Positions 1,939-31,324 of a DNA stretch of 64,000 nucleotides are shown piece by piece. Numbering within the stretch: the stretch's first letter is position 1; every line of letters starts with the position of its first letter. Source of the stretch: Tetrahymena thermophila SB210 (lineage: Eukaryota > Ciliophora > Oligohymenophorea > Hymenostomatida > Tetrahymenidae). Under the pieces are notes generated by a model, which ran no database searches, had not been told where the DNA came from, and saw only the letters and a program-made list of their open reading frames with translations. The DNA lies in the NCBI RefSeq assembly GCF_000189635.1, contig NW_002476368.1, positions 124,001 to 188,000 on the forward strand. Direction: 5' to 3'. Position numbers and translations under genes: made by a program.

Positions 1939-2058
1939 GTTGTCGGCCATACTAAGGTGAAAACACCGGATCCCATTCGAACTCCGAAGTTAAGCGCCTT
2001 AAGGCTGGGTTAGTACTAAGGTGGGGGACCGCTTGGGAAGTCCCAGTGTCGACAACCT
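1939..2058 (+). rRNA. 5S ribosomal RNA, copy 2
   Basis: Second identical 120-nt copy, 254 bp after the start of copy 1, with the same TTTATTAATTTT leader and a T-run terminator. The spacer after this copy (2059-2169, 111 bp) differs in sequence from the other three spacers. Confidence 0.97.
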
Positions 2059-2169
2059 TTTTATTTTTTAAAAATTGATTTTAATCTAGTATAATAAGTT
2101 CATTTAAGTTAAATAATATTATTGTAATAAATTATAAATTTACTAATTCACTTTATTTTTATTAATTTT

Positions 2170-2289
2170 GTTGTCGGCCATACTAAGGTGAAAACACCGG
2201 ATCCCATTCGAACTCCGAAGTTAAGCGCCTTAAGGCTGGGTTAGTACTAAGGTGGGGGACCGCTTGGGAAGTCCCAGTGTCGACAACCT
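2170..2289 (+). rRNA. 5S ribosomal RNA, copy 3
   Basis: Third identical copy, 231 bp after the start of copy 2. The following spacer (2290-2423) is nearly the same as the one after copy 1, sharing the block around ATAGACTACCTATTAAATG. Confidence 0.97.
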
Positions 2290-2423
2290 TTTTGTTTTTT
2301 AAAATTAATTTTATCTATGAAAAATAAATAGATTTATTTATTTAGTTATTATATTTAAAAAATATTGTTATAATCATAGACTACCTATTAAATGTATTTA
2401 TTCACATTTATTTTATTAATTTT

Positions 2424-2543
2424 GTTGTCGGCCATACTAAGGTGAAAACACCGGATCCCATTCGAACTCCGAAGTTAAGCGCCTTAAGGCTGGGTTAGTA
2501 CTAAGGTGGGGGACCGCTTGGGAAGTCCCAGTGTCGACAACCT
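2424..2543 (+). rRNA. 5S ribosomal RNA, copy 4
   Basis: Fourth identical copy, 254 bp after copy 3. The following spacer (2544-2678) belongs to the same type as those after copies 1 and 3 but contains an expanded TTTA microsatellite around 2580-2620. Confidence 0.97.
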
Positions 2544-2678
2544 TTTTGTTTTTAAATTAATTTTATATGTAAAAAATAAATAGATTTATTTATTTATTTA
2601 TTTATTTATTTATTATATTTTATTTGAATAATAGACTACTTATTAAATGTATTTATTCACATTTATTTTATTAATTTT

Positions 2679-2798
2679 GTTGTCGGCCATACTAAGGTGA
2701 AAACACCGGATCCCATTCGAACTCCGAAGTTAAGCGCCTTAAGGCTGGGTTAGTACTAAGGTGGGGGACCGCTTGGGAAGTCCCAGTGTCGACAACCT
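2679..2798 (+). rRNA. 5S ribosomal RNA, copy 5
   Basis: Fifth and last full copy, 255 bp after copy 4, with the same leader and a T6 terminator. The downstream sequence no longer matches the spacers and leads into a truncated sixth copy at 2910. Confidence 0.97.
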
Positions 2799-2909
2799 TT
2801 TTTATAAATTTTATCATATTCTTTCTATCATAAAAAATAAATAAAATGCTTATTTGTTATTTATTATTAAAAATGAAAATATAAATAAACTTTTATCCTT
2901 ATAAATTTT

Positions 2910-2949
2910 GTTATCGGCTGTACTAAGGTGAAAACACCTGATCCCATTT
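2910..2949 (+). pseudogene. Truncated 5S rRNA relic
   Basis: Only the first ~40 nt of a 5S gene are present. They differ from the intact copies at about four positions: GTTATCGGCTGT in place of GTTGTCGGCCAT, and CACCTGAT in place of CACCGGAT. The match stops after GATCCCATT. The 3' two thirds, including the downstream part of the internal pol III promoter, are gone, so it should not make 5S rRNA. It marks the degenerate downstream end of the array. Confidence 0.85.
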
Positions 2950-3729
2950 AAATGTAAATAACTTGAAAATTAAATATATATATAAATTAGTAATAATAAT
3001 ATTAATTCATCAAATACACATTCGCCAGAGCAATATAGATAATCTAATGTGTTTAAAGGAGTTCAAAAAATTTTTTTATTAAAAAAAACAAATTTAAACA
3101 ACATGAATAGAAAATAAATATTTACTTCTTCTATATCTTTGAAATGGTTATTGTATCATTTATTATTATTATTTTTTTAAATAGTGAATTGAGATTTATT
3201 TATTGAAATTTAATTTAATTTATTATGCATATTTAATCTACTTTTAAAAAAAATTAATTTTAATAAAAAGAATAAATTTGTTACTATAAGAATGCTTCTC
3301 CTATAAGAAAATTTACAAAAGTAAATTTAAAATATCTTTAAGGTCTCTCTCTATCATTAAATTTATATTTATTATATCCACCTTAAAATTAAAAAAATTA
3401 AAAAGGGAGGAGAAGGGGATAGATATTTTGCAATTTGGTGTGTATATTTATATATATAGCTAGCTGTTCCAGTTCTTCTTTAAAAACTTCATTATTAAAG
3501 AAGTATTTAATTTTGGTGTAAAACTAGAATAAAAATTAGATAGATAATACTTCATTATTTAAGAACTAATAAAATAAAATAAATTATTTGATTTAAAATT
3601 AATATTAGTTAGTTTGATTTTCGAAACTGTATTTACATAGAAATATTTATTTAGATTTAAATTTAATTATTAAAATATATTCTTATTAATTAATTAATTA
3701 TGTTGCTTTTATCTTAATGCATTTTAATA
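2950..3729. other. Intergenic between 5S relic and kinase 3' end
   Basis: A+T-rich sequence with no supported gene. It contains a purine-rich tract at 3403-3420 preceded by AT-rich AAAATTAAAAAAATT, one of five similar motifs in the window (see findings). Confidence 0.6.
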
Positions 3730-6700
3730 TCAAAAAAAAGATATATCGAATTCTTAGATCTTTGGCAGATAATTTTTGAAAATTTGATCTATTTAAGCTT
3801 TCAAAGATTCTTCTTCTATTTCTCTCTGCCATAAAAAGAAATTTTTTTGTAGTACATCGTTGTTAAAATCTTGATTTTAATACTTAGATCTTAAATATTT
3901 TTAGAATTCAGTGAGCTTTATATTTTAATCATCAAGCAATATAAAATGATTTAGAGTACAGCATAATAAAATTCTTAAAGAATATTTCATCTTTTCAAAT
4001 TCTGCTTGCTGAGTTTAATCTTCTTCTATTTAGGTATTACTTATTTGATTTAAATTCGATTAAGCTATTTTATTATTTGTTTTGGGTTAAGTTTACTAAG
4101 AAGAAATTGGCAAGCTAGAATTATTAGGTTTTATTTCTGGTTTATTTGATTTTAAATTTGCTTTTTGAGTTTAGGGCGACTTTTATGCAGATATGCTATT
4201 AACTTATGTTTTGGTTGCAACTGAAGATGATGCTGCTGCTTATGGTTTTACTGTTTATTTTTAAATTAAACTGCTTGATTATTGTGTATTTTTATTTTAT
4301 TGAAAAGTGAATTATTTAGACTAGGAGGGAGATGTTTTACTAGGTGTTATAGCTTAGTTTATAGAGCTATTTTAAAGTTATTTATTGGTTGCAAAACTGG
4401 AAAAGCTCTTCGTGTTATTGGAAGTTGCTAGCTGCTTCAATGTAGATGTTACAACTTATGGTGAGTTATTTGCTGTTTTAATTGTTTGAGCTTAGCTACT
4501 TTGTTTAATACTAGATTGAGCACTCAAAGGTGTTGTACTTGCTGAGCTATTTGTTATTTTTTTTATTACGCTATTATTGTTACTCGAAATGCTATTAGGT
4601 TATACTGTCTTTTTGGTTAAGGCAGATAAATTTGTAATACTTTAACTTACTTGCTTAGTTGTGCTTGATGCTGCTGCTGATTGGTGCTGAGGAGATTAAT
4701 TAAAAACTAAACTATTGTGATTTTATTTTACAGATTTAAGATTAGAGTGACTTTTAGATGATCCAATTAAATGCAGGCTTTGCTATGGTGAACTTATATA
4801 AGAGAGACTTGATAGTGTTGCTGAATAAGAGTGTCCATCACCTTAAGATGCTGATTGAATCGATTTATCCTCTTTATATGAGTTTTGTAGACGAGTGTAT
4901 GCAGTCATCATTACAGCTCTAAATGCTATCTTTATCTAATCAGGTAGATTAGATTGTAAAAAAGAGTAATCCTATGGAGCTGAGGTCTCTAGAGGTGAAA
5001 TAATATTTTCTATAATATCAGGAAGGAGTTTGAGAGTGCTTTTGCCTTACTTGCCTTTTATTGCTTTTTCTGATTTCTTGTTTGTACCTTTTGCTAGCTT
5101 TTGTTCCTAGTTTTCACTCGAAGTCTCGGTTTTGTTTTCTTAGTCAGTAGTTTCGTCAATTTCATCTTCTAAATCTTATTCTTTGTCTGATGTCTTTTCC
5201 AAATGCTCAATTTCTTTCACTTAAATAGGAACAAGCTCTATCAATTTTAAGTGATTGTAAAGAATGGTTGACTTTTCCATCCATATTTGCATTTCAAGTT
5301 AAACTTAAGAGAATATTGTTAAGTAAGATTTGCTAAATATAAACTGCGACCAATGGTCTAGATTATAAGTGTTATCACGTTCATCAAGAATTTTGTTTAA
5401 GCCTTGGAAGTAGAAAAGAATAATCCTCGAAAGGAAATAAAGAATTAAATTAATTTCGTTAGTATTAAATTCAGTACTGATAATAATGTTATCTCCGTTT
5501 GCAAAAAGTTCATATACATCTATCAGCTGAGTAATTCTATTTAGCATTTAATTATATGGTAATAGATGCACTTCATAAATGTGCTTTTACGTATTACCAA
5601 ATTGACTGATTTGGAATGTATTTTCTTCTTGACTTTCAGTCTTATTTTTCTTTTAAGATTCACTTGGGGATTCGTTTTCATTTTGGACACTATCAACTGG
5701 CGAAAGTCTGTCTGCAGACGGTGTATCGTCTTCTCTAGATTCTTCTGGTAATACTTGCTGAATCGATGATGAAAAATCAAATAATTTCAGTTTTTTTACG
5801 ATTGGAGATGTTTCTACTTACAAGCTGTTAAGTGATTTGAGCTGCATTTTTTACTTGTAAACTATTTAATTTTCATCTAAAACAACAGGCTCGACTTTTG
5901 GTACTAAATCACCTTGCATATCATGCTCCTTTATAATAGGGAGTTCCAACAGCTAGTTTAGTGTAATCCTTTTGCTCGGATCAATATTCAACATCTTTTG
6001 TAGAAGCTCAACTGTTTCTTACCTAATGTTTTAGTATTTACTTTTCTTTGCTTTCTCAAAGTTAAATTCTGGAGTGCAAACCATCTTAATTCTCTCAAGT
6101 TACATGTAGGTTGTTTACTCACATATTGGAAAATCATTAAACATCATCGCATAAAGCAAAACACCCAAACTCCAAATGTCAACTTGCTAATCGTAGTTTT
6201 TACCATCTAAAATTTCAGGAGCCATATACATAGGTGTCCCTGCAAACCCATCAACTTTATCCTTTTACTACTAAGTAACAAGACCAAAGTCAGCTATTTT
6301 TGGCTAGTCATTTTTCAAGAGAATATTTTACAATTTAACATCTCTATGAATAAGATTAGCTTTCTATATTTCTTTGAATCCTACTAAAATCTAAACAAAT
6401 AAATTTAGAGCTATCTTTTCTGGGATGCAGTGATTATGGAATTTTTTCATCAAATCAGACAACGTGCCTCCTTCACAAAGTTCTAAGACAATACAAGGAT
6501 GGTCTTGCTTATCATAAAAGACCTCATAATACCTGACAACGTACTTAGAATTAACACTCTTGAGCGCATCAAGCTCATTATTCATCATTTTTTTCATTTT
6601 GATATTGTTGATCTATTTTATAGCATACTCATATCCTTTGTAAGTTGAGCATTTGTAAACAGTACCAAAAGTACCTTGTCCTATCTACTTAACAACCTTG

Positions 6701-6777
6701 TATCTCCCTAAAAACTCTATCTTCTGCTTATAATCTGATCTTACTATAACTGGAGCATCAATATTTACCCTATTCAT
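3730..6777 (-). CDS. Ser/Thr protein kinase with long Q/S/N-rich tail
   Basis: One uninterrupted exon of 1015 codons plus TGA, from the ATG at 6777-6775 to the stop at 3732-3730. It contains over 80 in-frame TAA/TAG codons, read as Gln. The kinase domain covers roughly residues 26-300: glycine loop GQGTFG (33-38), catalytic lysine in AIKQ (K54), HRDVKLQN catalytic loop (144-151), DFG (163-165) and APE (186-188). All key catalytic residues are present, so it should be active. The loop and lobe sequence resemble ULK/NEK-like kinases, but I cannot place the subfamily. The remaining ~700 residues are hydrophilic and partly low-complexity (Ser, Gln, Asn, Lys), with a more ordered hydrophobic stretch near residues 410-500 and a structured-looking C-terminal end. 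No substrate can be inferred. Its start faces the gene at 8648 across 1.9 kb. Confidence 0.93.
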
Positions 6778-8647
6778 GCTTCCTTAAACTATTTCTTATG
6801 GTATTAAAATTAAACGCGGTTTTCAGCCCCTGCTAATGACAACGAATGAAATAATATGTAAATTGTAGCCTAAACTCTATACTTATGATGCTGTTTTGGA
6901 GCTATTTTATTTTCTATGAAATATTTTTAATTGTTTCTAGTATGGTAATGTTAATAAGAACTAATAATAACTTAGATTTTTTGATTTAATTCTAAAAAAA
7001 ATAATATAAATCTTTTTCATTCAAAAATAAATGCATTGTTTTCTTTCCAATTAATTGAATAATCGCATTTTGGCTAATTAATTAATTAACAAATAATGCG
7101 CATTCAGTTTTGTATTATAGATCATTTATTATCTCTTTCATAAGCAAGCAAGATAAAAAAGTAACAAAAAAAAAACAAAAAACACTTATTTGTATATTTA
7201 CTTTTTTAAGTGTTTTTTACTTTTTATGTTTTTATGATTATAAATGTAATAATAAACTTGAATGATTAAAGTAATTGATTTCTTTAAATCTCCTCAATTA
7301 ATTTATTAATTCTTTCAAGCATTAATTAATCTTTTTATATATTTATGTAATCGACTTCTGATATCTTTCAAAGAGTAATTAGCACTATCAAATTCAACCT
7401 AATGGTTACATCCTTTAATTTTTTTATTATGTAATTGCATCAATAAATTTTTAGATGATTTCTATTGTTGAAGCAGTATTTTCAAATAAAATAAAATATT
7501 CATAAAGTATTTTCTTTATTTGATGTTTTTTTTTGAAAGTATTTTTATTGATAATTAAAATAGACTAATTTTAATAGGCAAATTATACTGAATAAATAAA
7601 TATTGCATTTTTTTAGATAAGAAATTGTTTCTTTTAAAAAAATATTTATATAAATGTATCTAAAATAAATTAATTATTTTTGAATAATTTAAATCTTGTA
7701 AATACTTCAATAAATATAATTAAATTATTTTATCATAATAGTTTATATTTATTTAACATTATTAAAATTTGAATAAATAAATAAAATATTAAAATCTTTA
7801 AAAATCATATTCTAAATACAGATTTATGTTTGGTATTTTTAAGAAACTGTTTTTACTTTATGCTTATTAAAATTTATTTATATTCCACTAAAAAAATGTA
7901 TTTTGCTTTTAGTTAGTTAGAGTTTGAATTCAAAAACATACTTTATAAAATAATATTAATATTCCTCTCAACTTTCATTTTCAATATAACAGATAACAAA
8001 CAAAAGAAATTTTATATTTTACATTAAAAGAGGTTTGTTTAATGCATAAAAATTTTAGTATTTAACTAATCCAAATTGTATATTTTTGATATAACTTGAA
8101 ATAAGTAATTGATATTTTATTTTATTATAATAAAATAAATAAATAAATCTAAATTTAAAATCTTAAGATTTTCTTTAATCTTTGATAAAATAAAACACTT
8201 ATTAGAGTAGAAAATTCTTCAAAAAATAAATAAAATTTAATGAATTGAGTTTAAGAAATCCAGGGTTAAATTAGAAAGATTATAAAAATATTTTAAAGAA
8301 TTAAATAAATTCAAAACTGAACCGACTCCAATTTTATTATTTTCCCTCTATATCAACCTCCTCCTCCCCTTTCAAAATTTAGAGATTTATTCAACCATTA
8401 ATTTATTATTTTTATGTATATTTTCTATATAAAATTTTATAGAACATTCAAGAATTGAGATTTTATTGAAGTATCTATTTTATTTTTCCAAAACGTACAT
8501 ACACATATAATTTAGATAAATATTATTCAATCCTATAAATTAAGAATTAGGATATTGAATTTTATATCTCATATATTAATTAGTTTTATAAAATTAGTAG
8601 TTAATTAATAGATTAATTAATAAATTGCTTATTTTACTTATCAGTAG
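6778..8647. other. Intergenic between two divergent genes
   Basis: About 1.9 kb of A+T-rich DNA that must hold the upstream regions of the kinase (leftward) and the 1028-residue protein (rightward). I recognise no specific sites. A pyrimidine-rich block at 8355-8372 is one of five similar motifs in the window. GTAAC...AAAAACACTT around 7160-7210 contains an inverted AAGTGTTTTT element that could form a hairpin. Confidence 0.55.
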
Positions 8648-11600
8648 ATGCAAAAAAAATAAGAAATTTAAATTTAAAGCGATAACATAAGAGACAAAAA
8701 TGATTCAATTAGTCTCGATGAATAGTAGCTTTATAATCTACCTTAGAGATAAAAGTTGTTATTGAGCGAATAGTATCATTCTATTCGAAACTAATTATCC
8801 ATTCAAAAGTAGAACTAATATACTTAAAAGGCTTAAAAATTAGTCGATGGCATTGATAAGGTGTTGGAATCTGATTTATATTCCTGGGAAGAAGAAAAGT
8901 AGTGGAAATTTAATCTACCTAAAACTGTATTTGAAGGTGATTAGTCTCCAATAAAATTCTTTCAACCAGAACTAGTATATGGCAATTAAGACATGAACAG
9001 GTTAACTCTCTAATAAATGATTTCTATAGAGTAGTCAGGAAAATTTATTGTCAGTGGAAAAAATGAAGAATCATCTAAAGTATGGAAAGTGAGTCCTTGG
9101 ATAGTTCGAGGACAAAATTATATTAATGAGTGCTATTATTCAGGGCTAAGCCGTTCTTATTATCAATTACTTTAAATCAAGAAAAGATTAGGATGGAAAT
9201 ATGCTTAAAACTAGTTTCTTGGATATAAGCTTTTTAGACCAAACTTTTTTAATGGATTAATTGGTATTTCTTGTGTATTTACTAAGTTGGCATCTATAAC
9301 TATTGGTACTTAGCAATTAAATATCTAAGGTAAGGACTAAATTTTAAATGAAATAGCAAGAGAGAGGAAAAAAGAAACTATAAAGATGTATTAGCCTGAA
9401 ATTAAAACAAGCTTTTTTGAATACTTCAGAATAAAAAATGATGAGGTTTTCTATGACGAGATTAGTAATCAATTTTACTAAAATTTGAAAAGCGTAAAGG
9501 AACAGCTGGAATCATAAAATCGAATTGAAGATTTTAATACACTCTAAAAGGCATTCGAAATGGCTGCTAACGAACTAGAAAAAAGTAGATTAAGTGAGCT
9601 GGAGAAAATGAATGTAGAAGAAAAGGAAGCCTTACATAAAATTTTTAATGAAAAATAAGAGCTTCTTTTTAGCATGATTTTATCATCAAAATACATAAAA
9701 GATAAGTAAGTGTAAGAACATTTCATAGAATTAATAAAAGTTACTTAAATTACAGAAAACCATTACTTTAAACTTGAAAACGATTTAAAGGAGTATGCTA
9801 AATAAGAATAAAATAATTTATCTGATAAGCACCCAATAAAATCAAAAGTATTTTCTTGGATAGAGCATCAAATAAATGAATTTATGACAGCAAAGAGAGC
9901 TGAATTGTAGATTGAGTGCAATGCTCAGATCATCAAAGAATTAGAAGATAATAACCTTCACTCTTATGCAAATTAATTTAGAAGATATACTGAATTTTAG
10001 TAAAATCAAGATGCTATTTATGAGTAAAACTATGAAAGAATCTAAAAAATTAAAGATGAACCTAGCAGAGTTTTTAAGACATTTGAATAAAATAAGAAAC
10101 CTTACAAAATATTGAGCGATGTTTCCTACTTAGGAGAGACTTATTATTTTTTTGACGAAGCAAAGACTCATTTAACACCTACAAGCTTCTTAGGATGGAG
10201 GTTAGCTTTGCTATTTACTAGATATAAGGCTTGGACAAAAAATGTTTATAACATTTTAATTGACAATATGATAAATGGAGAATTAGGGTTAAAGGCTTTA
10301 TTCAAAACAAAACCCTTTCCTAGAGATTATAATCTAGACATAAAGACTGGCTAATTGTAAGAAAAGTTAGTCGATCCTTATATTTATAGCTTAAAAGAAT
10401 CTCTTAATTCAATAAAATAATCTCTTAGAGACTTTGAAGCCTAGCCTGACAGAGGTATTATTGGAAAGAGTATCTCTAGAGTTTTCAAATAAATCGAATG
10501 CTTAATTAGATTAGCTTTAACAGCTAGTTTCATTGGAATTGGTATGCCTGTAGGAATTATGATTAATACTACTTTAAGTTTCTTACTTGCTGTTACATCT
10601 TGGGCTTGGATTCCTGCTTGTCTTGTATTAAGATAGATCTTCAATATGCTTATATTTGATCTTGATTATCCTCATAGCATCGACTCTAGAAGATAAAATG
10701 ATTAAAGAGTCATTAGTTCATAATTTTTTCCACTCCCAGCAGTAGTTTTTGACATGTTTGTAGATTATTTAGAAGTTAGTATCAGTTTGGCTAGTGCATT
10801 CATTATACATCCAGCTCTATCCACATTTAACTTTGCTATTACTGCTTTAAGACGTGCAGGATAAAGCTTGAGTGACGACATTATGTGCTTAATTATCTCC
10901 TTAATAGGTAGACAGCCTGAAATCGATACTTTCTTAGCATGGAAAGTAGGTAAGGCAGGAGATGAGCAATAACAAATTTACTCAATGAACATTGAAGATG
11001 TTTAATTCTTGGTGAGAGCTCGTTTAGAGGAAATTGAATTGGAAGAGTATCAAAGTAGATTATTAAATAAAATAAATGAACCAAGTTTTATTTTCGATAA
11101 TTTATCAAAAAATTTATTTCAGTTTTATGATCTTCGTTAACCAGATAATAGAATAATTATTTCTAGCATAGAAATGTATATCTAGATTTTATAAAAGCAA
11201 ATTGAAGAAAGAAAGAAAAATTACCCTTTACTACCAAAATGCAACATTAAATTCACAGATGAAGAGCTTTAAAAGCTTTTCTTTTAATCTTAAAATCTTG
11301 TTTAGAGTTTTGTTGAGCCAAGAAAAATGGATTGGGTCTTCTAAAAATTTGAGATAAAATAAAATGATTATAAAAAATTAACAGAGATGGTTTTGATTGA
11401 CATATTCGAAGATTCTGAAATCCTGTATCCAATCAGTGAAGCAGATAAAAGAATATAGATTAAAACAGAAAAAAGAAGCAACTTTGATTCTATTTATAAT
11501 TCCATAATAAGTAAAAGTGGTATTTACTCATAAAACTAAATAAGATTTTAAAAATATAAAAATAACTTCTTATTCCCTTTCATAGGACCAAAAGAAGTAT

Positions 11601-11734
11601 AGTAAAATTTCGATAAAAAGCAAATAAACTATAGCACTATACTCAATCCTGCATGTGAAGCATTTTATTTTGATCACAAAGACTATGAAGAAATAGTTTT
11701 ACCAAAAAATGACTATTAAAATGATAAAAATTGA
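8648..11734 (+). CDS. Large membrane/coiled-coil protein, family not recognised
   Basis: A single open frame in the ciliate code from the ATG at 8648 to the TGA at 11732-11734, 1028 residues with no intron. The ATG lies in an A-rich context and is the most upstream one I found in frame. The N-terminal ~110 residues are polar and Gln-rich. Residues ~110-290 look globular (WKVSPWIVRGQNYINECYYS). Residues ~285-345 are charged and heptad-like (ELEKSRLSELEKMNVEEKEA), a likely coiled coil. Two hydrophobic regions follow: residues ~620-660 (IGIGMPVGIMINTTLSFLLA) and ~695-735 (SISLASAFIIHPALSTFNFA), suggesting a membrane-anchored protein. The C-terminal ~290 residues are hydrophilic. I see no enzyme motif. 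The frame and composition make a real gene near certain; the function is unknown. Confidence 0.9.
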
Positions 11735-12214: not shown

Positions 12215-15200
12215 TCATTGTTTAAATTTTATATGAACTGCTCTCTTCAATTTGTAAAGCTTAAATTTTAAAGCATCATGATTTATACTCCTATATTAAA
12301 AGAAAAAAAGAATATATTCTTGCTTGCTTGTCCGAAAAATAACCATTTAAATTAAAATTATTAAAATAAAAAAATAATAAATTAATTTTATCTTTTAAGT
12401 ATGAAATAGTGAAAAATTATTTTAAAAAATTTAATTTTTGAATGAAAGTTAATAAATTTAAGATTACGATTAATATTAAATATCAAATATCAAAACTCTC
12501 AGATTGTTGTTTTTGAATTTCAAATTAGATAATAAAGATTCATTTTATAAAAGTGAATATCCTCCTTTAATAGCTAAAGTTGAGAAGTGATTACAGTTAA
12601 TCAAAGTATTAAGTACATGCAATGTGCTTTTAATAAATTTTAATTTTATATTTAATAAGATGTTATAAATAAATTACTTATTGTCAATACATATTTATAA
12701 GGTTGACAAATTATTTAAATCAGTTAACTTAGAACTTAACAATTATACTGAATTTCTATTGATTTTGTTATTTCTTTTTAGGTTACAGATAAATATTAAT
12801 AAGCAAAATAAATAAATAATTAAATAAATAAATAAATAAAAAAACAAACAAATATTAAAATAGTAAACTTTATTAATAAAAAGAAAATAAAATGTTATTA
12901 AAAGATATCTTTACTCAAGATCAAGAGCTAGTCTTGATAGTTTACTACATTATGCTAAAGACTCACATAAACTTATTACTCCTTCCTCTCCAATAATATT
13001 TCCTCTTAATATAAAGTTAATTTATTATATATATTTTTTATATACATACATACAAACAAAGCAAAAATAAAACACATAAGCTAGATAAAAATTTCTCTTA
13101 ATAAAGAAATACATACCCTCCTCCCCCCTCTCTTTTCAATTAAAATTTTTAAAGAAATTTATTTAGTTAGTTAGTTAGTTGGTAGGTGGGTGTTTCTTTT
13201 ATATGTAAATTATTCACTTAATAAAATATAAAATGTATGATTAATTAATTTTACTTTAGATAAAGTCCTAAATTTTAAAGTTTTGATAGTTTCTATATGA
13301 CAAAACCAAGATATGAGATATCAGAATCATTTATTTATAAACATCTTTTTTAGATTAATTGAGTATTGAATATATATATGATTTTAAATTTAAGAAATAT
13401 TTAAAGTATATTTTAGAAAATTTATAATAGCTAAAAACAACAAATTTTTACTCTAAATTTAATTCAAGTTCTGATATACTGACTAATTTTCCTATGGAAC
13501 TAAAAAGCTCAAACTATTCATTATCAGGATACCTATTTTAATATTTTTAAAAATAATATTTAACAATTTATTATTTATTTATTTTTTTAAAAACTGATTT
13601 AAAAAAAGCTTTTTTGAAAATTAAAAAGATTAATAAAATGATACCATAAAAATAGCTTTAAAAATCTAAGATTTGAGCAATCAGCTAAAATAGTACATAA
13701 TCCAGAAAAAGCTTTATAGCTATAATAATACCTTTGAATAAAATAATTTCTGAAATAAAAAAATAATTTAAATATAAAAGTAAAATTTAAATAAAGTTTT
13801 CTTATTATTTAAAACTTAAAAGTATTTCTTAGCTATTTTAAACATTTTATTTTTCTTCTTTTAAGATGGATAGGTAAATAAATAAATAACTTTGTTTTAT
13901 TTTTTGTTTTATTTGATGGTAAAAATTTACTTGATATCGAGAGTTAAACTAGAAAGCTACTTGAATTAAGATAAACCCTTACCTATTTTTATCAACCCTT
14001 CTTCATTTATACAGTTATTTCTATTTAGTAAAATAAGTTTATTTTTTGATAAAACAATTTATTATTTTATTATAAAACAAAAAAAAAAAGAGGGAATGAA
14101 TATAAATATACTTAATATCTTCTTAATTTTAGTAAAGAACAATAATAACTATAAAATTTGATTTTTATCTTTTTTATCTTTTGTTTGAAGTATTTTTTTA
14201 AATTTTTCAAAATTAGAATAAAAAATAAAGTACAGTAAAGACAGATTAATGTGCTCAACAATTAAATTATTTGATAATTCATGTTAGAAATCTGTAAAAG
14301 CCTATTTTCCTATTTTATTATTACTGTTCAAAAATGTAAATATATATTTATTTTAACATAAATAAATAAATAATCAGATTATAAATCAATTAGTTTGTTT
14401 TAAAAAAAGTAAAACTCCTAAACTAACAAACAAACAAACAAACAAACAAAGATTTTTACCATAATGAAAGTGTTAGAAATTGGAGACTACATTAATAAAT
14501 AGCACAAATCAAATTCTCATAACCGATCGATCCAATTTAGTTTTTACTTTTTTTAATTTTAAAGAGGTTTTTTAATATGATTAACATTTGAATTTAATAA
14601 AAAATCATATTAATAATATATATATTTGTACTTCATTTAAATGAAAAATAATAAATAAATAAATATAATTATACTCAAGATTAATAGTCAAATTTGATAA
14701 ATTATTTAGTTTTGCTAAATAATTGAAGCTTGACATACTCTCATCCCCAATATAGTTATCCCTTCATTAAAAAAATATTTTATTAGCTTTAAATAGATTT
14801 AATGATATATTAAATCAACGAACATTTATTTAAAAATTAAATTATATTTTTCAGATGATTAATAATTATAATAGAAAGCATAAAATTATTAAATAAATAA
14901 AGAAATATACCTTAAATTAATTGATATTGTTGAAAGATTAGAACAGTTTGGTAAAGCAGAGCACAAGCGTATTAAACCTTAGTTCCTAACTTTATTAGAC
15001 CTTTTTATTTATAGGATAATTTAGAAGTTTCAGAGTAAATATTTTATTTTAAAAAACTAAATAAAAGAATAGATTAATTAATTAAAAAAAAATTAAGACT
15101 GACCCTAAGTCAAGAATTAAAGTAGTAAGATGAGCACAATTAGCTAATTCAATAAGTAAATCTTATGTCCCGTAGTGACCAACTTCATTTGAACTATTTA

Positions 15201-15979
15201 AGAATAGAAATTAAAATAATATTAAATTACCGTCATTAATTGCCTATTTAAAAGAATTTTGCATATCTATCTAATAAGTCAAATTTAAGTTATTAAATTA
15301 AAAAAGTCTAGCTAGTTTATTAAATTTTAATTTTTTATGTTTTTTAGCTCACTAATGTTTGTAATAATATTAAATAAATAAATAAATAAATAATAATTAC
15401 TTAAGATTGAGTAATAATTTTTTTAGTTTAGAGTATTTAGCTAAAGCACATCCTATATCAGATAAAGCCTAATCACCAATAAGTTTTGTATCCCTTAAAA
15501 TTTGTATTATTATAAAAATAAATTAAAAAACTATTAATTTATATTTTTTAAACAGTAGAAAGAATATGCTCTTAGGGATTTAAGGTAATGACTATTTTAT
15601 AATATTTTCTAAATAAGATTTTGTATTATTTTAATCTATGAGAAAAAATTAAGATTGAAATAAGTAATTTTATTTAATTTTAATACCATTATTAATTTCC
15701 ATATTTTATAAATCTAATTCCTGTTAATTTGTCCTCCCATTCATTGGAATAATCCCATATACATGTCCTAAAGGAACAATATATTTTTGTCTCTTCAAGC
15801 TAAGCTGGAACTATTTTAGACGAATCGTAAATCTTAAAATCAAGATGAACATAAGTATGGTCAGTAGTAGGAGAAATTCCAAAAAACTTAATTATTAAAT
15901 TAAAGTGAATTATTTAATGCAAACTTTCAATTAAAAATACATTTTTAAAAGATTTTGTATGTAATATTTTTTCTGTCAT
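12215..15979 (-). CDS. Leucine-rich-repeat protein, 14 exons, one repeat per exon
   Basis: Exons, 5' to 3': 15979-15687, 15493-15401, 15193-15104, 14985-14911, 14761-14675, 14546-14460, 14323-14234, 14020-13931, 13749-13645, 13532-13452, 13344-13255, 13004-12915, 12626-12468, 12290-12215. The sum is 1506 nt, or 501 residues plus TGA. Every junction has GT...AG and the same phase: two bases before the intron, one after. Each internal exon encodes one repeat of the form IGxxGLxxLxxALxxCxNLxxLxLxL, for example GLIRLCSALPNCSNLSTI, LIELANCAHLTTLILDL and VISLCESLAQCSKLSRLALD. Exon 1 is a ~97-residue N-terminal part with no recognised domain, starting MTEKILHTKS. The last exon gives a short basic end (KLYKLKRAVHIKF). 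This type of LRR protein is abundant in ciliates; the role of this one is unknown. Introns are 107-288 bp, longer than the exons. The exact start and the 13749 acceptor (alternative near 13724) are the least certain parts. Confidence 0.82.
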
Positions 15980-18533
15980 ATATATTTTTTTAGAGTTTAA
16001 CTTTTATTATTTAGTCAAATAAATTATTATAAAAAATAAAGCATAAGATTTTGTTTTTATACTAAACCAATTTTAAATAAAATGATAAATGAAATTAATT
16101 AGCTTTTTTATATAATTTTTTTTAGATAAATTTTACAATTAGTACTTAGCTATTAACTATTTATTTTATTCAACTTTCTTTTAATAGTTAATTATTTTAT
16201 GTACTTCACAAAGTTAGATAGGAAAGTAAATCATAGCTTTTCTAAATTAAAATTATAAATGAAAAATAAAATTTTAGCAAAATTAGCAGCTATTTATTTT
16301 GTGAAGGAATATAAATTAAATCTTTTTTATGGCATTAAAATGAATAAATTAGACTTTTTGTATCAGTTATTAATTCATATTTTATTTAACTAAAAAAATA
16401 ATTGATATAATCTACAATAAATACTTTTATTTATAAATGGCATTTTAAAATAATAAAAACACTTTAACGGATCTCTTTTATTAAAGTATTTTTTATAAAA
16501 AATATTTTCTGTTCGTAAAGATTACTACTAAATATACAGTTTCATTGTTTTTAAATTTTATTCTCTTCTCAATTATTAATCACTGTTTATATTTTTGTAT
16601 GAAGATGCTAAATTCTACTAAAATAAATATGTTAAATTGAACACAGATATTAAATATTTGCCATTAAAAATATATTAATTTATTATATAAGCATGTTTTA
16701 TTTACTTAGGTTAGTTAGTCTATTTTAAAATGGAAATATACAATTTACTACAATTTTAATTTCTATTTATTTATACTTTTGAATTTTTACAAAAAGATTA
16801 TAAAAATCAATATCATTTATTTCTTATAATTATTAATACAAAAAATCAAGAGAAATTTAGTATCTATTAACTTATAAATCTAATGAATGAATGAGTATTT
16901 CCAAAACAAATTCACATAATAAAAGATAATTAAAATAATTATTGAGCCATAGTAAATTATATTATTAATTGAATTCGCAGTAACCTAATAAAATGCAAAT
17001 TAATTAATTGATTTTCCTAATATTTTGCTATAAAAATAAAAATCTTCCAATTAGTGCAAATGCTTAAATAAACTAATATAAATTAAAATTAATAATAAAA
17101 ATATATAAATAATATATTGATTTATTTTTAAATTTAGTCTTTAACTATGTCTTAAGAAATAAAATTGTTATTCTCATATTTTAAAATTCAATTAATTGGA
17201 GTTCTTTTAAAGAAGTCAAATTAAAATAATGATTCAAAAAAAGTAAATAAGTAATTCAGAAAATAAAATTTTAATTCTCAAAAATGTATGAATGTAAATG
17301 AATAATTCCTTTTCATATACTGTAAGTAAATCCTAATTAGATTCCAGGGACACATGTATTTAATTTTAAAAATATTTATAATAAAGGCGGATTTTAAGAA
17401 AAAAATGAATAGGAGAAGGTCTTAATTAATGAGGATTTACAATATATTAATACCTTAAAATAAAATATTTGCATAGAAAAAAAAGTTTAAAAAGAACTAT
17501 CTCTTTAATAAAGAAAGTTTGAAATTTGCTAATTTTTTCATTAGATTTATTTCATTTTATTATGAATTATAATAAATATCATATCTTACAGATTTATGCA
17601 AATGCAATCTATCTAATATTTAATATGTAGTGAATCACTATTAATAGTATTTAAAATCATATTTTAAGATAATTGATATATGAAATTTCTTATCAGGTAA
17701 ATTTTAAATCGAATAAAAAACATAAATTTTATTTTCTCATTTGTCATTAAAGGAATAAAAACTTTTATACTTTTATCAAAATTGTCTTACTGATTTATAT
17801 TTAGCAGCTTTATTCCACAAAGATTGAAAATCTTTCAAAATAAAATCATTTTCGTTTTTATCAGTATTTAAAGTTTACAAATTTAAGTAAAGTTTTATCT
17901 TTTTAGACTAGTTTTATAAATTATTTTTGAAAAGTATTCTAATTATTGTATCATATTTATTTTCAAGATTTATTTTAGATTAAAAATTTACTAAAGTAAT
18001 TTAACTAACAAAGATATTTTTTATGCTGATCATGAAATAATTGATCAAAAATTAAATAATATACCTAATATATTCAAAATACAAACTAGCATCGTCATAT
18101 AAAAATGTATATTTATTCAAGTACTCTAAATTTGTGATATGTTATAAATTATGTGTTTAGAGAATAGAATGAAATAAAAGGAAAAAAAAAAATCTTTTTG
18201 ATATAAAATTTGATATTTTATAATTTAGATCATATGTAATTCAATAAAAACCACAAAATAAATTTCCTAATCATCTATCTGATGAAAAAATCAAATAAAT
18301 AAGATTTACATAAATCTAATTTGATAAGTAAATCATAAGCATATAAATAGTATCTATCATTAGTTCGTCTCATATACTTTACATATATAGAAATTTGTTA
18401 ATTATCAATTTAAATTGAGCATATCTTAACTCCCATATAATAAATAAATAAATAAATTAACTAATTAATTAATTTGTAAAAGTAATCTCATCATTTAAAA
18501 TTTACATAAAAACAATCAAGCATATAAAGTAAA
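15980..18533. other. Upstream region of LRR gene and of the first lectin gene
   Basis: No supported coding sequence. From about 16665 rightwards the sequence is repeated, with scattered differences, at about 20258-22098, so it is the 5' flank of duplication unit 1. The last ~100 bases contain (AAATA)n-type runs and the pair TAATTAATTAATTT / ATTTACATAAAAA, shared by both lectin gene leaders and possibly part of their promoters. Confidence 0.55.
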
Positions 18534-19976
18534 ATGAACTTCAACTTTTCTATGGGACAAAATCCTCAAGGATAATACCCTCCTCAACAAGGCCAATATC
18601 CTCCTCAAGGCTAGTACCCTCCTCAACAAGGCCAATATCCCCCTCAAGGATAGTACCCTCCTTAAGGTTTTTACCCTCCTTAACAAGGCTAATATCCTCC
18701 TAATCCTTGTGAATAACAACCTCCTACTTTTAGTTTTGGATTTGGATAGCAACCTCCTTAAGGATAATATCCTCCTCCTCCTTTTGGATAAGCTCCTCCC
18801 TAATTCTAACCTCAACAATAAGGAACTTCTTAACCTAATCCTCACTACGGAAGAAAATTACCTCATATGGTTAAATAAAGTTAAAAAGTTGGTAAAGATA
18901 CCCACTACTACTCAACTCACTTTGATCAATTAGAGCAATCATCAGTCTTAAAAAATGAGTTCCACACTCCTGAAGTAGATAAAATAACTGTATTCTACAC
19001 AGAAAACATTGTTGTCGGCATAGAATGCCATTATAAAGCATTAGGCAAGGACAGTGTAGCTACTATAACAAATAAAGGTAGTTGTTAAGGATACGTTTAA
19101 TCCTAAACAATAGCTTTAGAATTTGGTGAAAACTTCACTGAAATATCTGGTCGTGCTGGAGATTCTATTGACCGTTTATTGATTAAGACAAGCAGAGGAA
19201 AAACTTTAGAAGTAGGTGGATAAGGAGGTTAACCATTCTAAAACCTCCTCCCTTGGGGTCATCCAAACATTGTCAGTATTGGTGGTTCTACTCGTGAATA
19301 TTTAGACTCTCTTTATGTTTTACATAAATGAAAAAAATAGAATAATTTATTAAAAGTAGCTTATTTAGTAAATAAATCTAATATGTCTTTATATTTTACC
19401 TTATTAAAATTTTTTAAGATTATTCAAAAGTCATTAAAATTAAAAACAAATAATTAGAATTGTTAAAAAGAAGTTTTCTCATTTTATCTTCTTCTTAAAA
19501 ATGGAAACTATTTTTATGCTATTCTTTTTATTACATAAATATTTTGAAGAAAATGTTAGAAACATGTTTACTATTTTTTGTTTTTTAAATTTGATGAAAT
19601 TAAATGCAATAATAATTTTTATAAGTAACTCAATTAATAGCTAGTAGTTTTGTTTTTGTCAAAAATTAAAACCAATTTACAAGTAGAAATGGTTAAAGCT
19701 GTTGACATTTTTTTCATAGCAGAATTGCTAATAAATTATTTTATTCAATTCTCTATTCATAAACTTTAATAAGTTAAAAAAAAAAAGAATTAAATGATTA
19801 AATGCAATTATAAACTTTAAGATAAAGAAAATTATAATTTTTGTAATTTATTAAACACTAAATATTCATTAACATTTATGCAATTTACTTATATTTATTG
19901 TAATCTACTCAAGAGGCTTATTATAAAAAAATAAAAATTTCATTTTAAATACGAAAATAACAGAAAGACCTTAAAT
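16665..19976. repeat. Tandem segmental duplication, unit 1
   Basis: Unit 1 of a direct duplication with an offset of about 3.57 kb at the genes. It begins near AATATATTAATTTATTATAT (16668) and ends near AAATACGAAAATAAC (19948-19963), after which the two units diverge. It contains ~1.87 kb upstream of the lectin gene, the gene at 18534-19331 and ~0.64 kb downstream. Boundaries are by eye and good to about 20 bases. Confidence 0.85.
18534..19331 (+). CDS. YPPQ-repeat jacalin-type lectin, copy 1
   Basis: A single exon, ATG at 18534 to TGA at 19329-19331, 265 residues. Residues ~8-110 are Pro/Gln/Tyr/Gly repeats (QGQYPPQQGQYPPQG-type), as in annexin A7 and rhodopsin tails, with most Gln encoded by TAA/TAG. 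The C-terminal ~130 residues match a jacalin-type lectin domain, a beta-prism carbohydrate-binding fold. Its hallmarks are visible: ISGRAGDSIDRLLIKTSRG, then GGQGGQPF, and a C-terminal SIGGSTREYLDSLYVLH. There is no signal peptide, so a cytosolic or unconventionally delivered lectin is likely; sugar specificity cannot be read. A near-identical paralogue is at 22099. The dense Arg/Leu-rich frame on the opposite strand is only the shadow of the repeats. Confidence 0.93.
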
Positions 19977-22098
19977 GCTTTGTTTTTTTAATTTTCAGAA
20001 ATCATACAAATACCATTTTTATTATATTACTCAACTAATTTTGGTGGTTTTTTTTATAAAAAAATAAGATTAAGACCAGCTTACTTTTTATGCAAAGTAG
20101 TTCAAGTTATTAATTTTTTATTCACTCAAATAGTATTAAATATTTTATTGAATTTTTTATTTCCTATTTTAATAAGATTTTTAAAAAAAAGAAAGTTTTT
20201 AAAGTATGATTTTATAGACTTTTGGAATTTATTAGACACATAAATATTATCTAAATTATAAAATATATTAATTTATTATATAAGTATATGTTTTACTTAG
20301 GTTAGTTAGTCTATTTAAAAACGGAAATATACATTTTACAACAATTTTAATTTCTATTTATACATTTTCAACTTTTACAAAAAGATTATAAAAATCAATG
20401 TCATTTATTTCATATAATTATTAATACAAAAAATCAAGAGAAATTTAGTATCTATTAATTTATAAATCTAATGAATGAGTATTTCCATAACAAATTCACA
20501 TAATAAATGATAATTAAAAAAATTATTGAGCCATACATAGTATATTATTTTATTAATTGAATTCGCATAATAAAATGCATATTAATTAATTGATTTTCTT
20601 AATATTTTACTATAAAAATAAAAATCTTCCAATTAGTGCAAGTGCTTAAATAAATTATTATAAATTAAGATAAATAATAATAATATATTATAATATATTC
20701 ATTTATTTTTAATCTATAACAATATTTTAAGGAAATAAAACTGTTATTCTTATATTTAAAACTCAATTGGAGTTCTTTTAAAAAAGTCAAATTAAAATAT
20801 TGATTCAAAAAAAGTAAATAATTAATTCAGAAAATAAAATTTTAATTTTCAAAAAAATATGAATGTCAATTAATAATTACTGATTTGATCCTATATTATA
20901 TACTGTAAATAAATTTTAATTAGATTACATTAGGGACACATGTATTTAATTTTAAAAATATTTATAAAGGCAGATTTTAAGAAAAAAATGAATAGGAGAA
21001 GGTCTTTAATTAATGAGGATATACAAAATATTTATATTTTAAAATAAAATATTTGCATACAAAAAATAGTTTAAAAAGAACTATCTCTTAAATAAAGTTT
21101 GAAATTTGCTAATTTATACATCAGGTTTATTTCATTTTATTATGATTTATAATAAATATCATATCTTACAGATTTATACAGGTGTCAACTACCTAATATT
21201 TTATTTGCTGTGAATCATTATTAATATAATTTAAAAGTATATTTTCAGATAATTAATTTATTAAATTTCTTATCAGGTAGATTTTAAATCTTATAAAAAA
21301 CATCAATTTTATTTTTTCATTTGTCATTAAAGGAATAAACACTTTTATACTTTTATCAAAATTTTTACTGATTTAAATTAAGTAGTTTGATTCCACAATG
21401 ATTGAAAATCTTTCAAAATAAAATCATTTTCGTTTTTATCAGCATTTAAAGTTTACAAATTTAAGTAAAATTTTATCTTTTTAGAGTAGTTTTAGAAATT
21501 CTTTTTGAAAAGTATTCTAATTTTCGTATCCATAAATATTTTCAACCTTTAATTTAGATTAAAAATTTACTAAATTAATTTACCTAACAAAGATATTTTT
21601 TTTGGCTGATCATCAAATACTTGATCAAAAATTTTTTTAATAATATACCTAAAATATCCAAACTTCAAACTATCATCTTCATATAAAAATGTATATGTAT
21701 GTATTCAAGCATTCCAGATTAGTGATTTGATATAAATTATGTGTTTAGAGAAAAGAATGAAATAAAAGGAAAAAATAAAATCTTTTTGACATAAAATTTG
21801 GTATTTTATAATTTAGATCACATTTAAATCCATAAAAACCACAAAATATATTTTTCTAATCACCTATCTGATGAAAAAATCAAATAGATAAGATTTACAT
21901 AAGGCTAATTTGATAAGTAAATTTTAAGCATATAAATAGTATCTATCATTAGTTCGTCTCATATACTCTATCAACGATTTAAATTGTGCATATCTTAACT
22001 CCCAGATAATAAATAAATAAATTAACTAATTAATTAATTTGTAAAAGTAATTTCAACATTTAAAATTTACATAAAAATAATCAAGCATATAAAGTAAA
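19332..22098. other. Intergenic: 3' flank of unit 1, unique spacer, 5' flank of unit 2
   Basis: 19332-19976 corresponds to 22930-23455 in unit 2 and ~20258-22098 corresponds to 16665-18533. Between them, 19977-20257 is unique A+T-rich spacer. I see no gene in any of these parts. Confidence 0.6.
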
Positions 22099-23455
22099 AT
22101 GAACTTTATCATTTCTCAAAATCCTCAAGAATAATACCCTCCTCAACCAGGCCAATATCCTCCTCAAGGCTAGTACCCTCCTCAACAAGGCCAATATCCT
22201 CCTTAAGGCTAGTACCCTCCTCAACAAGGCCAATATCCTCCTCAAGGATAGTATCCTCCTTAAGGTTTTTACCCTCCTTAACAAGGCTAATATCCTCCTA
22301 ATCATTGTGACTAACAACCTCCTACTTTTAGTTTTGGATTTGGATAGCAACCTCCTTAAGGATAATATCCTCCTCCTCCTTTTGGATAAGCTCCTCCCTT
22401 ATTCTAACCTCAATAATAAGGAATTTCTTAACCTAATCCTCACTATGGAAGAAATTTACCTATTATGGTTAAGTAAAGTTAAAAAGTTGGTATAGACACC
22501 CACTAATACTCAACTCACTTTGATCAACTGGAGAATTCATATGCTTTAAAAAATGAGTTCCACACTCCTGAAGTAGATAAAATAACTGTATTCTACACAT
22601 AAAACATTGTTGTCGGCTTAGAGTGTCATTACAAAGCATTAGGTAAGGAAAGTGTAGCTACTGTAGCAAATAAAGGTCATTGTTAAGGATATGTTTAATC
22701 TTAAACAATAGCATTAGAATTTGGTGAACACTTCACTGAAATATCAGGTCGTGCTGGAGATTCAATTGACCGTTTATTGATTAAGACAAGCAGAGGAAAA
22801 ACTTTAGAAGTAGGTGGATAAGGAGGTCAACCATTCTAAAACCTCCTCCCTTGGGGCCATCCAAACATTGTCAGTATTGGTGGTTCTACTCGTGAATATT
22901 TAGACTCTCTTTATGTTTTACATAAATGAAAAAAATAAAATAATTTATTAAAAGTTATTTATTTAGTAAATAAATCTAATATGTCTTTATATAATACCTT
23001 ATTACAATTTTTTAAGATTATTCAAAAGTCATTAAAATTAAAAATAAATAATTAGAATTGTTAAAAAGAAGTTTTCTATTTTTATCTTCTTATTTTTTGT
23101 TTTTTAAATTTGATGAAATTAAATGTAATAATAATTTTTATAAGTAACTCAATTAATAGTTAGTAGTTTTGTTTTTGTCAAAAATTAAAACCAATTTTCA
23201 AGTAGAAATAGTTAAAGCTATTGACATTTTTCTCATAGTAGAACTGCTAATAAATTATTTTATTAAATTTTCTATTCATAACTTTAACAATTTAAAAAAA
23301 AAGAATTAAATGATTTTATGCAGTTAATTTTAAACTTTAAGATAAAGAAAATTATAATTTATTAAATATATTTATTTTAATTTACTTAATAGGTTAATTA
23401 CAAAAAAATAAAAATTTCATTTTAAATACGAAAATAACGAAAAACCTTAAAATGG
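20258..23455. repeat. Tandem segmental duplication, unit 2
   Basis: Second unit of the direct duplication. It carries the lectin gene at 22099-22929, matches unit 1 through ~1.84 kb of 5' non-coding sequence with small indels, and ends near AAATACGAAAATAACG (23427-23442). Its 3' flank has lost a ~70-bp segment that unit 1 keeps (around 19490-19560). Non-coding DNA is still clearly alignable, which points to a recent event. Confidence 0.85.
22099..22929 (+). CDS. YPPQ-repeat jacalin-type lectin, copy 2
   Basis: A single exon, ATG at 22099 to TGA at 22927-22929, 276 residues. It has the same layout as the gene at 18534: N-terminal YPPQ repeats, then a jacalin-like domain with the same GRAGDSIDRLLIKTSRG core and GGSTREYLDSLYVLHK end. 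The 33-nt length difference is explained by one extra 39-nt repeat (13 residues) and a 6-nt deletion after codon 6. Most differences in the lectin domain are silent or conservative (for example GIECHY to GLECHY), so both copies appear functional. Its leader repeats that of copy 1. Confidence 0.93.
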
Positions 23456-28897: not shown

Positions 28898-29269
28898 TAC
28901 CAATATGGTAAAGGATATAAATAAATTTATTTGTAAAAAAATAAAGGAAGTATATAATTAAATAAAAGATCATTTTAATATCTGCTCATCCGCATGAAGT
29001 TTATAGACGTAAAAAAGGCACTTTTAAAATTAAATAAATTAATTAATATCAAATTATCCAAATATATTTTTTAATTTTTTAATTTATAATTTGAGTATAT
29101 CAATAAAATTTTCGAAGTGTAAATATAATTTTGGTGATATGCATAATTAAATTATCTGTTTGTGTAGATTATAAATTGATAAATATCTTTTTTATTACAT
29201 TAGATTTCATAACAAATATTAAATTAACAAATATTAAACGAAAAAATATCTAATAGAAAATAAGCATAA
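28898..29269. other. Intergenic between tRNA and glycerol kinase
   Basis: About 370 bases of A+T-rich DNA upstream of both diverging genes. I see no specific regulatory site. Confidence 0.5.
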
Positions 29270-31324
29270 ATGTCTTGTAATTTATTTGCAAAAGGATTAA
29301 GCAAGTTTAGGTTTTCAACTAAGGTAATATTATTAAAGCGCTTGTGATCAATTCAAAGATATCTTACTTAACATAGAAAGACAGGATTCTTCTTGGAGCA
29401 TTAGATTAAAGTACTACAGGTACTAAATTTGTTGTATTTGATTCATTAGGAAATCAAATACAACAGGATATGATTCCTCATGAGCAAATCACACAAAAGC
29501 CTGGTTGGCTTGAGCATAATCCTGAATAAATTCTAGAAAATGCTAATAAAGCTATTTAAAATACTGTGAAGAAATTAGAATAAGACGGATTTTCCATATC
29601 TTAAATAAAGAGCATTGGTGTAACTAATTAGAGAGAAACTGTAGTTGCCTGGAATAAAAAAACAGGTTTTTTCTTTATAAGCATCATATTTATAATAAAT
29701 CAAGTTGAATAAAAAAAGGAAAACCTTACAACAATGCATTGGTGTGGAGTGACACACGTACTAGAGAAATTTGCAAAAAATATTTGGAAAAAAATAATGG
29801 AAATGCAAATTATTATTCAAAGATAACAGGATTGCCTATTAACACTTACTTTTCTTCATACAAAATTAGATGGTATTTCGTTTTTTGTAATTAATACTGA
29901 ATAAAATGTCTTTATAAACTTAGGTTACTTGAAAATGTCCCTTAAATCAGATAAGATTTATTCAAAGATGTTGCTTTTGGAAACATGGATTCCTGGTTGG
30001 TTTGGGTATTACAATTTTTAATTAAATATGATATTAATAAACAAGTAGAACTTAAATTTTATTTTTTACTAATAAATGAATTATTAAACAATAGAATCTC
30101 ACTAAAGGAAATCACTTCACAGACGTTACAAATGCTTCAAGAACATCTCTTCTTAACATCAAAAATCTTAAATATGAAAAATCTATATTGAAGTAATAAA
30201 ATTTCTGTTATTATAATTGAAAACATGTTTTAATTTATAATTAGTGACTTTGAAATTCCTGAAGAAACACTGCCTAAGGTTCTTTCTAGCTCACAGGAGT
30301 TTGGTATAATTTAAGATGGCCCTTTAAAAGGAATTCCTATAACAGCATGCCTTGGAGATTAGCAAGCAGCAAGTGTTGGTCATGGTCTGTTTAATCTTGG
30401 AGATTCTAAAAATACATATGGAACAGGATGCTTCTTCTTAGTTAATACAGGAACTGAACCTCGCTTTGTTGAAGGAGGAGGTCTTTTAACAACTATCCTA
30501 TATAAATTAGGGAAGAATGAACCAACAGTATATGCATTAGAGGGATCTATCGAGGCAGGTGGTTCTTCAATCAATTGGGCTAGGGATAATATGGGTAAAA
30601 AATTAAATTAATTGAAATTATTGAAACTTTTAAATAAACCAATTAAGATGAATTTGAAATTAGGAGCAAATTCTTTTAGATTTTACATAAAACATTTTAA
30701 AAAATGTTTACTGAATTTTATTAAAAAACCAAATAGGACTTTACAAAGATTTTCATGAACTTAAAGATTTGATTGACAAAACAAAAGATACTTAAGGTGT
30801 TTACTTTGTTCCTGCATTCAGTGGCTTGTTTTCACCCTTTTGGAGAGAAGATGCTGCTGGTTGTATATTAGGATTAACTATGCACTCAAAGAAAGAACAC
30901 ATATTAAGAGCTTTGCTAGAGGGTATAGCTTACAGAACAAGAGATGTAAATAATTTACTTAAATAATTTCAAAAAATTAAAATTGAAAAAAAAGGTCGTT
31001 GAAGCTTTTGAAGCTACAGCTGGATATAAAATAGATTCTTTGAAGATTGATGGAGGTCTCTCTAAGAATAAATTTTTAATGTAATTTTAGGCAGATATTT
31101 TATAAAAAGACATATATCAAACTAAGGTAGTAGATAGCACATGCTTAGGAGTAGCATTTGCTGCTGGACTTTCATCAAATGTTTACAAAGACGTTGAAGA
31201 ATTAAAGTAATATATAGAAATAGAAACTAAAGTTTAATACAACTCTTAGTTCTCAAATTAAGCAGAAGAATAATATAAAAAGTGGAAGAAAGCTATTCAA
31301 AGATCTATGGATTGGAAAGATTGA
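29270..31324 (+). CDS. GK: Glycerol kinase, eight exons
   Basis: FGGY-family glycerol kinase (glycerol + ATP to sn-glycerol 3-phosphate + ADP). Exons: 29270-29323, 29377-29665, 29719-29872, 29924-30005, 30095-30192, 30245-30594, 30737-30945, 30995-31324. The sum is 1566 nt, 521 residues, close to the ~500 usual in the family. All introns are GT...AG with consistent phase; most are 49-53 bp. Motifs in order: [15 protein letters not shown] (phosphate loop), [103 protein letters not shown] and [19 protein letters not shown]. Catalytic Asp and both FGGY signature regions look intact. Exon 1 alone encodes an 18-residue Arg/Lys/Phe/Ser-rich leader ([18 protein letters not shown]) resembling a mitochondrial presequence; this targeting is an inference. 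Confidence 0.96.

Follow-up and report, generated by a model that had tools for sequence, protein, structure and literature searches.

The LRR genes of Tetrahymena thermophila that are built from 90-bp exons form the closest described system to the locus analyzed here (Xiong et al. 2019, PLoS Biol, PMC6564038). In the sections of that paper drawn on here, 1,874 LRR genes are counted in T. thermophila, and 1,500 of them have 90-bp exons. More than 98% of the introns preceding 90-bp exons are in phase 2, and the Leu codons of these exons are centred on nucleotides 36, 48, 66, 75, 81 and 87, positions that were in print before our analysis. Group I consists of the LRR genes without 90-bp exons, in which the introns show no phase-2 bias (34%); 90-bp exons and phase 2 are tied to groups II and III. 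Group II (566 genes) is the older group and is not masked by the consensus repeat sequence, and group III (934 genes) is younger and is masked by it. Intron lengths in the family peak at about 56 and about 257 nt, and an array is defined as a run of three or more exons, each exactly 90 nt long. The exon units are described as having been multiplied by unequal crossing-over, possibly with a LINE-like retrotransposon, and the REP retrotransposon is reported beside young LRR genes. Species-specific genes are mostly silent or very lowly expressed in vegetative growth, and the family is compared with the immune LRR genes of plants. In our search of the literature on this gene class, this was the only paper found, by title, among the matches listed.

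This study was concerned with the minus strand of one segment (12215-15979) of a 64-kb stretch of T. thermophila DNA, referred to here as the window. The segment very probably holds a member of the Tetrahymena 90-bp-exon LRR family, older and diverged, whose exons would be spliced to encode an LRR solenoid protein. This explanation draws on the anatomy of the exons, which exceeds what chance would give, on arrays of similar exons in the same genome, and on weak similarity to LRR proteins of solved structure.

The GC content of the window is 16-31% in 2-kb steps, and the genome comprises 101 Mb in 445 contigs. Two marker proteins of this genome point to T. thermophila: a fragment of ribosomal protein L3 is identical to PDB 4v8p at 202 of 202 residues, and a telomerase exon agrees with PDB 2r4g at 101 of 102 aligned residues, the exception being the first of the alignment; both PDB entries are from T. 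thermophila. An earlier reading of this DNA, made without database searches (the sequence-only reading), had proposed a host that reads TAA and TAG as Gln, as a ciliate does, and this proposal was supported. Once TAA and TAG are translated as Gln, the stop-to-stop frames of 170 codons or more number 137. The same reading had stated that no long frame exists in the segment. Under the standard code, a search with ATG, GTG or TTG as start codons found no frame of 150 codons; with TGA as the only stop the statement is a loose one, for both strands then have stop-free frames of about 200-370 codons that overlap the segment. Since open frames are common under a TGA-only code and prove little alone, splice-bounded exons were tested instead. 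The gene model that was obtained is given in Table 1, together with other frames of the window. The two neighbouring frames that end in a jacalin-like lectin domain are possibly a tandem pair, and the two adjoining frames with FGGY carbohydrate kinase domains are probably one gene with introns. A scan for bacterial promoters gave 60 matches against 56.6 in shuffles and no terminators, a result that is not meaningful in a ciliate.

Table 1. Features of the window, with the exons of the proposed LRR gene listed in the order of transcription.
Feature	Position	Strand	Length (nt)	Remarks
Proposed LRR gene, ATG to TGA	12215..15979	-		15-exon model, 532 aa + stop, genetic code 6
Exon 1, N-terminal part	15687..15979	-	293	Not LRR-like by eye; least certain exon
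Possible phase-0 intron within exon 1	15940-15887	-	54	
LRR exon (core)	15401..15493	-	93	Phase 2-2; chain and length scan
LRR exon (core)	15104..15193	-	90	Phase 2-2; Leu at 6/6 positions; chain, length scan and YT pattern
LRR exon (core)	14911..15000	-	90	Phase 2-2; alternative acceptor gives 75 nt; chain and length scan
LRR exon (core)	14675..14761	-	87	Phase 2-2; chain and length scan
LRR exon (core)	14460..14546	-	87	Phase 2-2; fails the six-position rule; placed by eye, outside the chain
LRR exon (core)	14234..14323	-	90	GTAC donor; passes the looser chain rule, not the stricter scan rule
LRR exon (core)	13931..14020	-	90	Phase 2-2; chain and length scan
LRR exon (core)	13645..13731	-	87	Alternative acceptors give 75 or 105 nt, phase unchanged; chain and length scan
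LRR exon (core)	13452..13532	-	81	Phase 2-2; chain and length scan
LRR exon (core)	13255..13344	-	90	Phase 2-2; chain, length scan and YT pattern
LRR exon (core)	12915..13004	-	90	Leu at 6/6 positions; chain, length scan and YT pattern
LRR-like exon	12678..12773	-	96	The following 51-nt intron could be read through
Exon with two degenerate LRRs	12468..12626	-	159	Our own reading of the translation
Last exon	12215..12290	-		Ends KLYKLKRAVHIKFKQ-stop
Frame with N-terminal protein kinase domain	3730-6822	-		1,030 codons; E 1.4e-63
Frame matching Pfam Lips over the full length of the family	8459-11734	+		1,091 codons; E 5.2e-231
Neighbouring frames, each ending in a jacalin-like lectin domain	18138-19331 and 21790-22929	+		E 2.2e-10 and 1.6e-10
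Adjoining frames with N- and C-terminal domains of FGGY carbohydrate kinase	29095-30758	+		

The core of the gene model consists of 11 LRR exons (minus strand, 15493-12915) with GT-AG borders and phase 2 on both sides. Each core exon runs from codon position 3 to codon position 2 and contains one LRR of the ribonuclease inhibitor type. Six of the 11 are exactly 90 nt long. The core introns measure, in order, 207, 103, 149, 128, 136, 213, 199, 112, 107 and 250 nt (median 142.5 nt). When the 11 exons were anchored at the donor, Leu was found at 51 of the 66 published positions and one of L, I, V, F or M at 63 of the 66.

Borders and phase were conditions of the search, and the weight of the result therefore rests on the controls. 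The exact-90 scan looked for AG, 90 nt and GT around an open phase-2 frame with at least four Leu and five hydrophobic residues at the published positions. It identified five matches in the whole window, each of them within the segment on the minus strand, and none elsewhere under the same rule. Shuffles of the segment gave a mean of 0.013 matches (maximum 1, n=300), and shuffles of the whole window gave a mean of 0.17 (maximum 1, n=30). When lengths of 75-105 nt were allowed, 90 included, 12 matches were found in the segment against a shuffle mean of 0.19 (maximum 3, n=200). This loosest scan also gave five matches in the rest of the window, at 5111 (plus strand), at 79 (minus strand, twice) and at 39074 (minus strand, twice).

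The chain test, which is based on the published Leu positions, applied a slightly looser rule than the exact-90 scan and counted non-overlapping exons. It gave a chain of 10 exons in the segment, using the shorter acceptor variants for two of them, against a shuffle mean of 0.33 (maximum 3, n=500). Among 58 other strand-segments of the window the longest chain was 2; on its plus strand the segment gave 1, and the other two exon phases gave 1 and 1. Phase-2 introns precede all six of the exact-90 exons by construction, so the independent support for phase comes from the chain test. A strict DNA pattern (YT at the six positions, one mismatch allowed) was a weaker test with only mild enrichment: four matches were found in the window, three of them in the gene, against 0.87 expected, and one of 100 shuffles also reached four.

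These controls bear on the possibility that there is no gene in the segment and that the exons are a chance pattern in AT-rich DNA read with a permissive code. Long open frames are common when TGA is the only stop, the splice dinucleotides AG and GT abound, and matches of the loosest scan also lie outside the segment. However, the count was 10 exons in the segment and 0-3 in every control, whether shuffled sequence, another segment, the opposite strand or another phase, and matches in the PDB were obtained only with the unshuffled protein (below). A chance pattern was ruled out by these controls, and we assign it next to no probability.

The chain of 10 bears out the main claim of the sequence-only reading, a minus-strand LRR gene of symmetric phase-2 exons with one repeat each. 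The exact structure that it had given, 14 exons and 502 codons, was not reproduced, as no combination among those enumerated came to 502 or 503 codons. That structure is one among several, and its codon sum is no evidence, because any in-frame model sums to whole codons. In our own model the 5' end may comprise a single exon or a pair, and beyond 12915 the borders are likewise uncertain.

The core exons have a GC content of 0.265 against 0.139 in the introns. The gene model contains no TGA in frame, while its other frames contain 3 and 19; the absence of TGA alone is not significant (P = 0.11, taking the rate of TGA in the introns), and since the frame and the borders were selected as open, the openness of the model is partly by construction. 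These figures bear on a second alternative, that the segment holds the remains of a decayed LRR gene of the 90-bp-exon type, with exons that can still be recognized and with expression or function lost. Five of the 11 core exons depart from 90 nt, several repeats are degenerate and Pfam is silent, all of which would suit a relic, as would the weak TGA statistic and the low vegetative expression reported for most species-specific genes (PMC6564038, in the sections used). On the other hand, the exons that are not 90 nt long differ from that length by whole codons, and the borders are GT-AG. Codon positions 1, 2 and 3 of the core exons have a GC content of 0.33, 0.30 and 0.17, no frame breaks occur inside the model, and the C-terminal motif and the stop lie in register; part of this agreement comes from the selection of an open frame and open borders. 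We regard a relic as improbable and a real, ordinary member of the published gene class, not new in kind, as most likely.

The spliced protein matched no Pfam family even at E up to 1, and the curated Pfam LRR model was not reached. A sequence search of the PDB gave eight matches at a whole-sequence E up to 0.1, of which the best was an LRR protein (2.1e-6); ribonuclease inhibitor was found at 6.4e-4. These low E-values arise because scores are summed over repeats, and in the two alignments shown the best single stretch had an i-E of 0.046. An exact shuffle of the same protein gave no match.

Each phase-2 exon would encode one repeat of about 29-30 residues with the ribonuclease-inhibitor-type core, and the exon border would fall just behind the LxLxL strand. 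Thus, the gain or loss of an exon would mean one coil more or fewer in the protein, without a frameshift. Spliced together, the exons would yield a single protein of roughly 510-540 residues, provided that the gene is expressed. Judged from its sequence, this protein would most likely adopt the shape of a curved LRR solenoid, preceded by a distinct N-terminal part, and its predicted function is most likely the binding of other proteins. The gene may have originated by unequal crossing-over of exon units, the process published for the family (PMC6564038, in the sections used).

The N-terminal part appears to have no convincing relative in the genome. When the 97 residues encoded by exon 1 without splicing were used as a query, the genome gave, besides the query itself, a single weak match (E 0.047, 25% identity) whose frame contains TGA, and the PDB gave nothing at E up to 1. 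A 99-residue query from the second half of exon 1 with the intron read through found only itself in the genome.

A protein query of four repeats gave at least 151 matches in the same genome at E up to 1, its own gene included (best 150 of 261 candidates). From this match list, 20 stretches were chosen for a count of the 90-nt pattern, and 14 of the 20 contained 158 exact matches together. Over 33 loci, 14 had no match, and five of the 19 positives were overlapping pieces of the window gene. For example, locus L019 has 15 exact matches on a single strand where 0.02 would be expected, and by eye they resemble one another. Loci L014 and L016 lack exact matches; with up to two mismatches they have 17 (three of which look spurious) against 2.44 expected and 21 against 1.65 expected, respectively. 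No exact match was found in L017, L018 and L033. In L030, a run of 100 N (6959-7058) starts inside a 90-nt exon and is possibly an assembly gap.

At the DNA level, the 3,765 bases of the gene region were used as a query, and no close copy of the gene was found among the best 40 of 134 genome candidates. These gave at least 53 non-self matches, of which 33 fall in the AT-rich intron 12914-12774, 15 on core exons and five elsewhere. The 15 are short and weak and overlap four core exons at 67-82% identity, so the exons retain some nucleotide similarity to other places in the genome. The RVT_1 family had one match in the genome, on a different contig from the window; a single reverse transcriptase match is compatible with a macronuclear assembly. 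Queries from the 3' part of the gene found little: the last repeats (114 aa) gave three matches to their own gene and four weak ones elsewhere, and the C-terminal 43 residues gave no match beyond their own gene.

The best multi-repeat relative of the four-repeat query is an uninterrupted LRR frame in locus L023 (G000:C288), with 40% identity over 119 aa. L023 contains two neighbouring, similar multi-repeat LRR frames on its minus strand (2020-3438 and 4172-5431). They resemble the window gene in their repeats of about 30 aa and in their C-terminus, since they end in KTKRLVQIKIN-stop and KAKRLVQIKIN-stop, which by eye are like the end of the window gene; they differ from it in that several repeats lie in one open frame with no introns between them. 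This relative would suit a third alternative, in which the window gene belongs to the published group I and gained its introns separately. However, the core has six exact-90 exons and phase 2, both features of groups II and III, and the introns of genes without 90-bp exons lack the phase-2 bias (PMC6564038, in the sections used). Membership of group I is therefore very improbable, and membership of the 90-bp-exon family is preferred. The L023 frames also bear on the question of whether 90-bp exons arose by intron gain or whether introns were lost in L023.

Within the 90-bp-exon family, the window gene has the look of an older member. Its core exons share a mean nucleotide identity of 44% and at most 58%. 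The internal repeats of at least 40 nt belong to two families, both in AT-rich introns, and recent internal duplication was rejected on this ground. The low identity and the confinement of repeats to introns suggest an older gene, close to group II. The sequence-only reading had proposed that the gene grows by single exons like beads on a string. Look-alike exon arrays elsewhere in the genome support such growth as a property of the family; the window gene itself bears no trace of it. That reading had also presented the gene as a kind that annotation would overlook, a view not in keeping with the 1,500 genes with 90-bp exons already published (PMC6564038, in the sections used), a count which indicates that annotation captures this gene class.

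A more tentative and rather doubtful reading is that a former 90-bp-exon array gene left the birth-and-death cycle, had its exon number frozen and was taken over for a fixed, conserved job. On this reading the exons would have drifted by whole codons to 81-96 nt, and the gene would have been taken over together with its N-terminal part, which is without a convincing relative in the genome. If it were true, the exact length of 90 nt would be a mark of youth and no requirement. The window gene alone changes nothing that is known. It provides an example of the published massive exon shuffling in which one exon is one structural repeat, and, since it is probably old, it could help to date the relaxation of exon and intron length after the expansion.

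Compared with known proteins, the window gene product shows weak similarity to those of the ribonuclease inhibitor type, namely ribonuclease inhibitor itself (1dfj/2bnh, the match at 6.4e-4 noted above) and dynein regulatory complex subunit 5 (8j07, E 1.2e-3). It shares with them the repeat core LxxLxLxxNxIGxxG, which we take to be that of ribonuclease-inhibitor-type LRRs, and differs in being highly diverged, to the point of having no Pfam match.

Compared with the published 90-bp-exon LRR genes, as described in the sections drawn on here, the window gene differs in that its exact-90 exons never occur three in a row. Their longest run is two, and the gene thus falls outside the published definition of an array. 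Its core introns (103-250 nt) match neither published peak and lie between the two in length, with a median above the peak of group II. It resembles those genes in exon length, in phase 2 on both sides, in having one repeat per exon, in the six conserved Leu at the same positions, in its many introns and, as far as the two marker proteins indicate, in its species.
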